DNA from: Oscillospiraceae bacterium
GTDB lineage: Bacteria; Bacillota; Clostridia; Oscillospirales; JAAYXM01
Assembly: GCA_015068085.1 (NCBI GenBank)
Contig: SVLF01000007.1
Location: forward strand, 1 to 64,000
Direction of reading: 5' to 3'
Length of the DNA: 64,000 nt
In this document: piece by piece, positions 21,327 to 31,266 of the stretch
Layout of the letters: each line of letters begins with the position of its first letter
Numbering within the stretch: the stretch's first letter is position 1
Position numbers and translations under genes: made by a program
The notes under the pieces: model-generated
Told to the model about the DNA's origin: nothing
Database searches by the model: none
What the model saw: the letters and a program-made list of their open reading frames with translations, nothing else

Positions 21327-21590
21327 TTACAGCGGCGGTTCTGCCAACGCATCAAGCAGAAATTTTGTTGCAAAGCGTATTCCCTTTTCAAACGCTTTTT
21401 CAGAAGAATATCCACTTAACTCATTTATGTTTTCTTCATATTCTTCCAGCATCGCACGTTGCTCTTCATTGAGAGACGAGATTAGTTTACTGAGACTCGC
21501 CTCTGTTTTTTTCACTGCATCCTGCATTTCGCAGACTCTTTCGTTACGGTTTTCAAACAAATACGTATTCCACAAATCTGAAAGAAACAT
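21327..21590 (-). CDS. small hypothetical protein (DUF6809-like, tentative)
   Basis: 88-codon ORF with strong SD (caggaggtgg) and a structured leader; start trimmed to ATG 21590. Confidence 0.6.
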   Translation of the reverse strand: MFLSDLWNTYLFENRNERVCEMQDAVKKTEASLSKLISSLNEEQRAMLEEYEENINELSGYSSEKAFEKGIRFATKFLLDALAEPPL

Positions 21591-21612
21591 ATTCCCACCT
21601 CCTGTCGCAAAT

Positions 21613-21777
21613 AAAAAGTGCGCAGCCGAAGCTACGCACGAAAAATGCATAACTCCGATTTGCTGCGACACAAAGTTTTCTCATAACACAGGTATGTGAA
21701 AATAGAGCATGCATTTTTACCGAAAGGCAAAAAAACACACCAGTGCTATTGAGAAAATATTAACCTTTATGTCGCAG
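21613..21777 (-). ncRNA. candidate structured leader RNA with pseudoknot and terminator
   Basis: closing stem 21777-21765/21675-21663 plus 21757-21750/21683-21676; 10-bp pseudoknot helix 21718-21709/21650-21641; terminator 21639-21613. Confidence 0.6.
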
Positions 21778-21781
21778 TTTT

Positions 21782-21810
21782 ATTTTACCACAGTTTCTTT
21801 CTTTTTGCAA
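21782..21810 (-). promoter_or_regulatory. promoter of leader RNA
   Basis: TTGCAA-N17-TAAAAT on the - strand; predicted TSS falls at the 5' arm of the closing stem. Confidence 0.6.
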
Positions 21811-21896: not shown

Positions 21897-21931
21897 AAAC
21901 ATATACCACATCAGTGCGAGGTGTTACTACG

Positions 21932-22231
21932 ATGGATAACAAAACATTCGGGTTGCGCGAAGGCGTGTTGGAAAAGATAATAGAAATTGGAATCGGCTAC
22001 GATGCCGAGCGGTTGGTTATCTTTGGCTCACGTGCCCGCGGAGATTATAAAGAAAGAAGCGATATTGATATAGCCATATACGGCGGAAACACGGATAATT
22101 TCTCGCTCGATGTTGATGAATTTGTTCCGACGCTCCTGAAATTTGATGTTGTTAATATGAACAAGCCCGTACAGAAAGAGCTCCGTGACTCAATAGAAAA
22201 AGAAGGTGTCGTAATTTATGAAAAAGTATGA
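21932..22231 (+). CDS. mntA: MntA-like minimal nucleotidyltransferase antitoxin
   Basis: GS-X10-DXD motif GSRARGDYKERSDIDIAIYGG. Confidence 0.85.
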   Translation: MDNKTFGLREGVLEKIIEIGIGYDAERLVIFGSRARGDYKERSDIDIAIYGGNTDNFSLDVDEFVPTLLKFDVVNMNKPVQKELRDSIEKEGVVIYEKV

Positions 22232-22610
22232 AAACTTTTGCCGTGCGTATAAAAATCTTGAAGAATCCATAATTTTAGAACCACCGTATGATACGGTTAC
22301 GCTTACCGGACTTGTTGCGCTTTTTGAGATAACGTTTGAACAGTCGTGGGAAATGATAAAAGAAATTCTCGAATATCACGGCTATGAGCAAAGCAACACC
22401 GGATCACCGAGAATTGTAATTAAAACCGCTTTTCAGGCAGGTATGATTGATGATGAAGAAACCTGGCTTATGGCTCTTGCCGCACGAAACAACGTCGCTC
22501 ATTCATACAACGAGGATATAGCACTCAGCATTGTCCGTGAAACGAAGGACATTTATGCCGGTATGTTTAAAAAGCTAAAAGAAACAGTTGAAAAAGCCTG
22601 GATTAAGTAA
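22218..22610 (+). CDS. hepT: HepT-like HEPN toxin (HI0074-type fold)
   Basis: RX4HXY motif RNNVAHSY; overlaps mntA by 14 nt. Confidence 0.8.
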   Translation: MKKYENFCRAYKNLEESIILEPPYDTVTLTGLVALFEITFEQSWEMIKEILEYHGYEQSNTGSPRIVIKTAFQAGMIDDEETWLMALAARNNVAHSYNEDIALSIVRETKDIYAGMFKKLKETVEKAWIK

Positions 22611-22680: not shown

Positions 22681-23025
22681 TTATATATCAAAATAGTTTC
22701 GCAGGGCTTCCGTTATTTCCTCTTGTTTTGCAACATCCGTAAGCGCAGACACCTTATTGAGAAGTCTGTCGTGCGAAACCGTGCGTATCTGCTGTACCAT
22801 TACAACAGACAGCTTAGGAAGCCCACTTTCGACCTGCTTCAAAAGTATTTCTGTCGGATAAATCTTATCTCCCGGCTTTACGCTCGAAAGAGGCAAAACC
22901 GTCGAAACCGGAATGTTATGATTTACGGCATCTGTGGAAATAACCATAACGGGTCTTGTTCCGCGTTGTTCACTTCCCTTTGTCGGGTCGAGATTACAGA
23001 AATATATTTCCCATTTGTTTACCAT
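22681..23025 (-). CDS. mazF: MazF/PemK-family endoribonuclease toxin
   Basis: WEIYFCNLDPTKGSEQRGTRPVMVISTDAVN, PemK/MazF core. Confidence 0.88.
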   Translation of the reverse strand: MVNKWEIYFCNLDPTKGSEQRGTRPVMVISTDAVNHNIPVSTVLPLSSVKPGDKIYPTEILLKQVESGLPKLSVVMVQQIRTVSHDRLLNKVSALTDVAKQEEITEALRNYFDI

Positions 23026-23288
23026 TCTCCCTGTACCTCGCTGTCCGATAATGAAAAATCTTCTGCACATCGGCTTGTTCTCTCAATAAAGGCTTCATCC
23101 GCTGCAGCTTTTTTCATCTGTGCCGCATACTGAGCTTTCTTTATCTGCTTGAGATATTCATCAACAGCCTGACGGATGCCATAATTTACAGACGGAATAA
23201 GATTTTCACCGGCGAGCGCTTTAAGGTCATTAAGCGCAGCAACTGGAAGCGTTGCGGTATATCTCGTTGTTTCTGTGTAGTTCATCAT
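23019..23288 (-). CDS. cognate antitoxin, RHH-like
   Basis: TRYTATLPVAALNDLKALAGE..NYGIRQAVDEYLKQ; overlaps mazF start by 7 nt; acidic C-terminus. Confidence 0.75.
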   Translation of the reverse strand: MMNYTETTRYTATLPVAALNDLKALAGENLIPSVNYGIRQAVDEYLKQIKKAQYAAQMKKAAADEAFIERTSRCAEDFSLSDSEVQGEW

Positions 23289-23484
23289 CAATATCACCTC
23301 AATTACAGTATACACTATATCATCCAAAATATCAACACTATTTTGATGATTTTTACGCATCACATTTTGCATCTTTTTATGCACCTTGCGGAACAAACCG
23401 CAAGGTGCTTGATTTTTGTACTTGCCTTTTTGCAAAGCACAGCTCATTTTTGCATATACTGCTTTTGTAAAGGGGAGATTACTT

Positions 23485-26347: not shown

Positions 26348-26427
<80 letters not shown>

Positions 26428-26530
26428 CCTTGGAATCATTGCGGTTTCAAGGTGTTTTGCTATTTGTGGCGTGCTTTTTCAGAGCGCTTGAATGATTGTA
26501 AAATTTCTATTATTCAAGAGGTGCAGATTT

Positions 26531-27463
26531 ATGGCAAGAATTATGATGACAACAAGCGCAAATCCAACAGCCGAACAAGTGTTTTCTTTCTTCATCTCAG
26601 CGACTGCCGCACGAGGTGCAAAAGACAAAACACTTGACACTTACAAACAGCATTTTCGCTCTATTTCCAAACGACTTGATACCTCAATTCCAATAGGCAA
26701 TCTGACAAAAGTGCATTTGGATGATATGATATTCGAAATGCGAGCGGGCGGTCTTTCTTCACGCTCAATAAACAGTTATACACGCACTCTGAAAACTTTT
26801 CTCTCTTGGTGCAACTCTGAAGGATACACTTCTTTGAACATTCCCATTTATAAAGCAAGCGAATCCACAAAAGAAACATACTCGGATGATGAATTGTTGA
26901 TACTTTTAAAGAAACCAAGAGCGGGATGTAACTTTTGCGAATACCGCAATTGGGTTATTATCAATTTTCTTTTAAATAGCGGTTGTCGCGCGGCAACCGT
27001 GCGCAACATTCAGATACAAGATGTATATTTGCAAAATCGTCAGATACTGCTGAGGCATACGAAAAATGGCAAACTGCAAACAATCCCGCTCTGCATGGAA
27101 ATGGTTTCTATTCTCCAAGAGTATATGCAGATACGCGGTGGAAGCAGGACTGATTATCTGTTCTGCAATGAGTTCGGCAATTATCTTTCCGAAAGTGCCT
27201 TGCGGCAGACAATTGTAAAATACAATAGGAAAAGAGGAATAAAGCGAACCTCCATCCATGCATTTCGGCATACCTTCGCGCGAAAGTATCTTGTAGATTG
27301 CGGCGGCGATGCTTTCACATTGCAGAGGATATTAGGACACTCAACTCTTGCAATGACAAAGCATTATTGCAACATTTTTAATTCAGATATTGTTGATAAA
27401 TACGAAAGTCTTTCACCACTTGCACAACTTAAAAAAACGAGCGGGAAGTATATCAAAAAATAA
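26531..27463 (+). CDS. int: tyrosine recombinase/integrase
   Basis: NSGCRAATV..HAFRHTFARKYL..LQRILGHSTLAMTKHY catalytic pattern. Confidence 0.93.
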   Translation: MARIMMTTSANPTAEQVFSFFISATAARGAKDKTLDTYKQHFRSISKRLDTSIPIGNLTKVHLDDMIFEMRAGGLSSRSINSYTRTLKTFLSWCNSEGYTSLNIPIYKASESTKETYSDDELLILLKKPRAGCNFCEYRNWVIINFLLNSGCRAATVRNIQIQDVYLQNRQILLRHTKNGKLQTIPLCMEMVSILQEYMQIRGGSRTDYLFCNEFGNYLSESALRQTIVKYNRKRGIKRTSIHAFRHTFARKYLVDCGGDAFTLQRILGHSTLAMTKHYCNIFNSDIVDKYESLSPLAQLKKTSGKYIKK

Positions 27464-30791: not shown

Positions 30792-30820
30792 TTGATTTAT
30801 TTTCCTAAAAGTGATATAAT
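30792..30820 (+). promoter_or_regulatory. promoter of structured RNA
   Basis: TTGATT-N17-TATAAT; predicted TSS near 30827. Confidence 0.7.
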
Positions 30821-30826
30821 ACAATC

Positions 30827-31049
30827 ACCACATACAACAATTTAATATCAATGACAAGATATTTCTACAAATATCTCTATTTGTGTTACACATTTATATG
30901 ATGTTACACGGCAATATTAAGTTTGTTAAAAACGCAGGCTGAAATATGTTTTGTCGTGTGATATTCATATTAGATTGTTGTGTGTGGTAACCAGTAATCA
31001 AGCCGCGTTTTTGATGCGTGGTGCAGATTTCTGTTGCCACGCATTTTTT
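30827..31049 (+). ncRNA. candidate structured RNA with long closing stem, pseudoknot and terminator
   Basis: 25-nt closing helix 30827-30851/30964-30988 (24 pairs incl. 2 G-U), hairpin 30857-30876, stem 30906-30914/30951-30959, pseudoknot 30928-30940/31001-31012, terminator 31014-31049. Confidence 0.65.
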
Positions 31050-31119
31050 ATTTGCGTGAGACTTTAGAAAGGAGTTCTTTATTCTTAATTTTAATAATCA
31101 TATTGAAAGGTGGCTTGAC

Positions 31120-31266
31120 ATGAAAACAATTAAATTTAAAGAAAGCGATAAAGACTTGATTCAAAGAATCAAAGAATATCAAAATGCACATGGCTTATCA
31201 TCGTTTGTGGCAGCAGTTCGCAAACTATGTGCAGATGCCCTTGCAATAGAGAAAATAAGACATTAA
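31120..31266 (+). CDS. small ribbon-helix-helix-like protein (48 aa)
   Basis: MKTIKFKESDKDLIQRIKEYQNAHGLSSFVAAVRKLCADALAIEKIRH; SD gaaaggtgg; not in the ORF track because of length. Confidence 0.6.
   Translation: MKTIKFKESDKDLIQRIKEYQNAHGLSSFVAAVRKLCADALAIEKIRH

Follow-up and report, generated by a model that had tools for sequence, protein, structure and literature searches.

The stretch of DNA analysed here, referred to as the window, comprises 64,000 nucleotides (nt) from an Oscillospiraceae bacterium of the order Oscillospirales (contig SVLF01000007.1, positions 1 to 64,000 of the forward strand), and all numbering refers to window positions. On the minus strand, a leader RNA unit (21777-21609) lies upstream of a small gene encoding a DUF6809 protein (Table 1). 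The unit folds with substantially better energy than shuffled versions of itself (z = -7.75; 0 of 200 shuffles as good), in agreement with an earlier sequence-only reading that had proposed a structured RNA at this site. The promoter, a first helix (P1) with an extension, a loop/tail pairing and a terminator are all present where that reading had placed them.

Table 1. Leader RNA, associated gene and second leader copy in the window
Feature	Position	Strand	Remarks
-35 hexamer TTGCAA	21805-21810	-	17-nt spacer to -10
-10 hexamer TAAAAT	21782-21787	-	extended, TGG preceding
P1, 5′ strand	21765-21777	-	at predicted transcription start; both-side changes in 10 of 13 pairs
P1, 3′ strand	21663-21675	-	partner of 21777-21765
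P1 extension TTTTCTCA/TGAGAAAA	21757-21750/21683-21676	-	
AATATT in P1/P2 junction	21756-21761	-	moderate conservation
hp5 TGTGTTTTTTTGCC	21726-21739	-	5′ strand of apical hairpin P3; alternative core partner
Core GGTAAAAATGCATGCTCT	21704-21721	-	partner hp5 (P3) or tail (pseudoknot)
Pseudoknot strands AAAAATGCAT/ATGCATTTTT	21718-21709/21650-21641	-	
Tail TCGGAGTTATGCATTTTTC	21640-21658	-	partner core (pseudoknot, predicted OFF) or terminator 5′ arm and loop (antiterminator, predicted ON)
Intrinsic terminator GTGCGTAGC-TTCG-GCTGCGCAC-TTTTT	21613-21639	-	hairpin 21639-21618, then five T
Terminator 5′ arm and loop	21639-21626	-	antiterminator partner strand
Shine-Dalgarno (SD) sequence of DUF6809 gene	21598-21603	-	
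DUF6809 small protein gene	21327-21590	-	87 amino acids; Pfam PF20648, 35.8 bits (cut-off 27)
Second, diverged leader copy	30811-31053	+	own -10 and terminator; covariance-model match 45.5 bits, E=8e-7
Open reading frame (ORF) 3′ of second copy	31120-31266	+	48 amino acids

The window leader belongs to a class of units of about 165 nt, in which a promoter is followed by P1, the AATATT junction, a helix P2 of variable length, the apical hairpin P3, return strands, the tail and the terminator. The class tail reads CAATCGGAGTTATGCRTTTTTC and the class terminator GTGCGTRGC-TTCG-GYYGCGCAC-U5. Each unit has a sigma-A-type promoter, and P1 starts at the predicted transcription start. Among 133 copies, matches to a -35-like hexamer peak at exactly 17 nt from the -10 hexamer (mean 4.1 of 6, against about 1.5 elsewhere), and four or more of the six positions match in 75% of copies at spacings of 16-18 nt, compared with 12-14% at control spacings. 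The most conserved segments are the core and the tail, both of which are paired. Unpaired junction residues show moderate conservation, with AATA after P1 in 95 of 134 copies (71%) and CAA in 92 (69%).

The helices are supported by covariation. In an alignment of ten sequences, pairing and double changes in P1, the pseudoknot and the terminator were compared with slid structures and with shuffles: 96.8% of cells are paired, against 28-52% when the structure is slid, and double changes occur at 16 pairs, where shuffles give 6.8. In 134 non-redundant copies, each strand was then matched with its own partner and with those of other copies, and the duplex energies were compared, with z values of -27 for P1, -23 for the terminator, -9.7 for the pseudoknot and -15 for P3. 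The same ten core bases covary with the tail (z=-8.6) and with hp5 (z=-8.8), and are paired in about 98% of copies in the pseudoknot and about 88% in P3, which implies that P3 and the pseudoknot are mutually exclusive. Because related copies inflate all-against-all tests, the own partner was also compared with that of the closest relatives having a different partner strand. The preference persists for P1 (p=2e-21), P3 (p=1e-10), the pseudoknot (p=2e-8), the terminator (p=5e-19) and the antiterminator described below (p=1.5e-12), and is absent for two control strand pairs in the same test (p=0.15 and 0.41). The duplex energies are -12.5 kcal/mol for P3, -13.2 for the pseudoknot, -15.8 for the antiterminator and -13.9 for the terminator. 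A telomerase-type U-A-U triple helix was discarded by reasoning from known pseudoknot geometry rather than by computation, as the pseudoknot stem has its A-rich strand on the 5′ side, which gives a polarity unsuited to a Hoogsteen U strand in loop 1.

In a pseudoknot-free fold of the window leader, the tail UCGGAGUUAUGCAU pairs with GUGCGUAGCUUCGG, i.e., with the 5′ arm and loop of the terminator. The mean energy of this pairing in the 134 copies is -15.8 kcal/mol for a copy's own terminator strand and -12.4 for those of other copies (z=-15), and the distance widens for the 98 copies with uncommon terminators (-15.8 against -11.6 kcal/mol). The corresponding columns are 88-89% paired, compared with 24-64% when slid. 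A different antiterminator, formed by the P1 3′ arm and the terminator 3′ arm, has a weak z of -4.2 that vanishes against nearest relatives (p=0.14). The sequence-only reading had instead suggested an alternative fold near the SD sequence, between ATTTGCGACA and the P1 3′ arm; of the inspected copies, only those of the window and of L002, the closest paralogue, have this fold, and no covariation was found for it in the all-against-all test. The switching partner overlooked there is, judging from the covarying strands, the terminator 5′ arm and loop, with which the tail can pair instead of with the A-rich loop; the A-rich loop, for its part, can exchange the tail for the 5′ strand of its own hairpin.

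Comparison of the copies establishes the class and its promoter, the five helices and their mutual exclusivity, and a position before genes enriched for surface proteins. Read in order, the strands appear as a chain hp5-core-tail-T5-T3, where T5 and T3 are the terminator arms and adjacent pairings compete, so that two consistent states are predicted. The terminate state (OFF) would combine core:tail with T5:T3, and the read-through state (ON) hp5:core with tail:T5, P1 and P2 presumably being kept in both. Transcription would start at P1, and P1 and P2 would form and hold the A-rich core, which would pair first with hp5 in P3. On emerging, the tail would have two possible partners. In the OFF state it would capture the core, probably by displacing hp5 with GGAG/CUCU as the toehold; the tail would then be sequestered in the pseudoknot, allowing the terminator to form and RNA synthesis to end before the gene. 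In the ON state the core would remain in P3, the tail would pair with the terminator 5′ arm and loop, and polymerase would enter the gene. We infer the toehold route and switching in vivo, as well as a small signalling molecule or other factor that biases the choice by favouring the pseudoknot.

The position of the downstream genes fits this scheme. Of 120 copies, 69 have an SD-bearing start codon no more than 40 nt from the U-tract and 93 have one no more than 100 nt away; on the divergent upstream side the corresponding counts are 3 and 10. The start codon is usually 12-25 nt past the U-tract, which leaves no room for another promoter, and expression thus requires read-through. No common family was found among 108 downstream proteins; BspA-type leucine-rich repeats occur in nine, zinc ribbons in five, copper-amine-oxidase N domains in four and DUF6809 in two, and WG repeats, NPCBM and S-layer families are also represented. 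Scored by simple regular expressions rather than a trained predictor, downstream ORFs of at least 100 amino acids have a hydrophobic N-terminus in 74% of cases (27% of background ORFs) and a lipobox-like motif in 27.5% (3.5%), and the genes thus appear strongly enriched in lipoproteins and secreted proteins. A leader specific to DUF6809 was rejected, as the genome has a third DUF6809 gene (L006) that lacks the leader, and the majority of copies are found in front of other genes. The assignment as a leader was upheld, and its tie to one small gene gave way to a multi-copy class across Clostridia. A leader of the regulated kind, with promoter, pseudoknot and premature terminator, had been recognised correctly in the sequence-only reading; regulation in cells is presumed.

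A search at the DNA level located four additional copies in the source genome and others in members of the same genus. With a covariance model built from the ten-sequence alignment (threshold E<=6.2e-4), 12 copies were identified in the source genome, including the second copy in the window. In this copy the tail/terminator pairing amounts to -16.7 kcal/mol, and the pseudoknot can be read as AAAAACGC-A-GGCT/AGCC-GCGTTTTT. Of 298 genomes sampled from the order, 100 contain the RNA according to this model, as do 97 of 392 sampled from the class. Among 399 genomes sampled across the phylum, which also serve as a false-positive control, only the window's own genome gave a match, and no copy was seen in other classes of the phylum. 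A pattern scan of named genomes returned at least 119 matching stretches; the 80 matches listed are all from uncultured Clostridia or Firmicutes, nearly all metagenome-assembled and many from gut and rumen, and include Oscillospiraceae, Ruminococcaceae, Lachnospiraceae, Christensenella and Monoglobus. A phage or plasmid origin was rejected, as viral contigs and plasmids contained no copy; two faecal contigs recorded as 'phage', both unannotated, gave a match. Rfam 15 gave no match to the leader, in the window or in 19 related loci, at either the gathering score or a relaxed E-value, and literature searches, which covered open-licence papers, returned no description of the class, an earlier description elsewhere being possible.

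Several other features were noted around the copies. Two loci carry Gut-1 RNA (RF01706) no more than about 1 kb from the leader (L020, 2097-2296; L038, 784-852, the latter below the gathering score). At L003, an ORF for a hydrophobic peptide of 24 amino acids is found between inverted repeats of the GGCAAG/CGGTTATGCC type (about 1850-2100), an arrangement resembling type I toxin-antitoxin systems, and similar repeats at L004 and L005 bring the leader copies so flanked to three. In the window, genes for a nucleotidyltransferase (PF18765) and a nucleotidyltransferase-substrate-binding protein (PF08780) run divergently from the leader (21914-22610, plus strand) and resemble an MNT/HEPN toxin-antitoxin pair. 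A PemK/MazF-type toxin gene (PF02452) occupies 22681-23321 on the minus strand together with a small ORF that overlaps it on the upstream side and probably encodes the antitoxin. A tRNA gene followed by a putative tyrosine-recombinase-like ORF (26348-27463, plus strand) recalls the terminus of an integrated element.

In attenuators of the trp type, neighbouring segments form a chain whose pairings alternate and exclude one another. The new RNA is also such a chain, but it has no conserved leader peptide, one of its pairings is a pseudoknot, and the downstream genes are not biosynthetic. The ZTP (pfl) riboswitch is a transcriptional ON switch that acts through the pfl pseudoknot (PMC7337938), and in both RNAs a leader pseudoknot would decide whether an intrinsic terminator forms. 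Unlike in pfl, the pseudoknot strand in the new RNA is also the antiterminator strand, and for this reason its pseudoknot is predicted to favour termination; the Rfam scans gave no pfl match. As for the cyclic di-GMP (c-di-GMP)-I riboswitch (RF01051), the leaders are present in multiple copies in Clostridia, with RF01051 in 83 of the 298 order genomes, a frequency comparable to that of the new RNA (100), but there is no covariance-model match for that riboswitch over the new element. The two co-occur in fewer of these genomes than expected (18 against 27.9, p=0.009), which gives no support for a shared signal, and a c-di-GMP link was rejected for lack of positive co-occurrence. Type III toxin-antitoxin loci (toxIN-like) similarly combine a promoter, a pseudoknotted RNA, a terminator and a small gene. 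The new RNA differs in having neither short internal repeat units nor a common downstream protein, and as the downstream genes share no family, it was not assigned to that class, in which the RNA antitoxin precedes an endoribonuclease toxin gene of a known family.

Based on the two states expected from competing, covarying helices, we consider it highly probable that the RNA is a 5′-leader transcription attenuator, most likely an orphan riboswitch class; the architecture is riboswitch-like, and ligand binding is presumed. Several observations weigh against this interpretation. Conservation of the unpaired residues is weaker than in typical metabolite aptamers, the downstream proteins share no pathway, and a crude energy comparison, which omits the pseudoknot loop penalty, favours the terminator state. 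A few copies stand without a gene close by (L012, L016, L109, L111 and L130), and in tandem arrays (L216, L217, L218 and other loci) two or three complete promoter-RNA-terminator units precede a single gene, the lack of intervening genes being unexpected for a plain leader. Arrays and gene-less copies provide the best argument for an additional role as small RNA. Together with the presence of a promoter and terminator in every copy, they also favour a mainly free-standing small RNA gene of about 165 nt, sealed by P1 at the 5′ end and by the terminator at the 3′ end, with downstream genes expressed by leaky read-through. This appears unlikely given the clustering of start codons within 40 nt of the U-tract, and an antiterminator conserved by covariation would be without purpose if termination were constitutive.

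The same attenuator might instead be set by an RNA-binding protein, polymerase speed or temperature. The unpaired residues are conserved only moderately, whereas conservation is highest where core and tail are paired, which makes such a protein or physical input conceivable, if on balance rather doubtful. The observations suit protein, physical and ligand inputs alike, and the downstream-family survey showed no conserved protein gene alongside the RNA. The similar duplex energies of the competing helices and the surface-protein-rich regulon would also suit a signal-less, bistable attenuator that generates cell-to-cell variation in surface proteins, but RNA refolding is fast relative to cell memory, which makes this quite improbable. 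In favour of ribosome-coupled attenuation by a leader peptide, the window core contains an ATG with an open frame. Many copies lack this ATG, their core having changed to AAAAACGCAT, AAAAACACAT or AAAAATACAT with pairing kept, and no conserved coding frame was found in the leader among the copies, so that this mechanism is hardly credible. Within the preferred reading as a riboswitch-like attenuator, the balance seems to us even on a more specific proposal: a new riboswitch class for a signalling molecule, governing a regulon of cell-surface proteins and lipoproteins in Clostridia of the gut at a frequency about that of c-di-GMP-I there, in which pseudoknot and antiterminator contest one strand.

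The two-state model is explicit at the base-pair level. The frequency of the class, which occurs in a third of the genomes sampled from the order with up to 12 copies per genome, together with its absence from Rfam 15, points to an undescribed sensing system. This putative system belongs to uncultured gut and rumen Clostridia, and its regulon suggests control of the cell surface.
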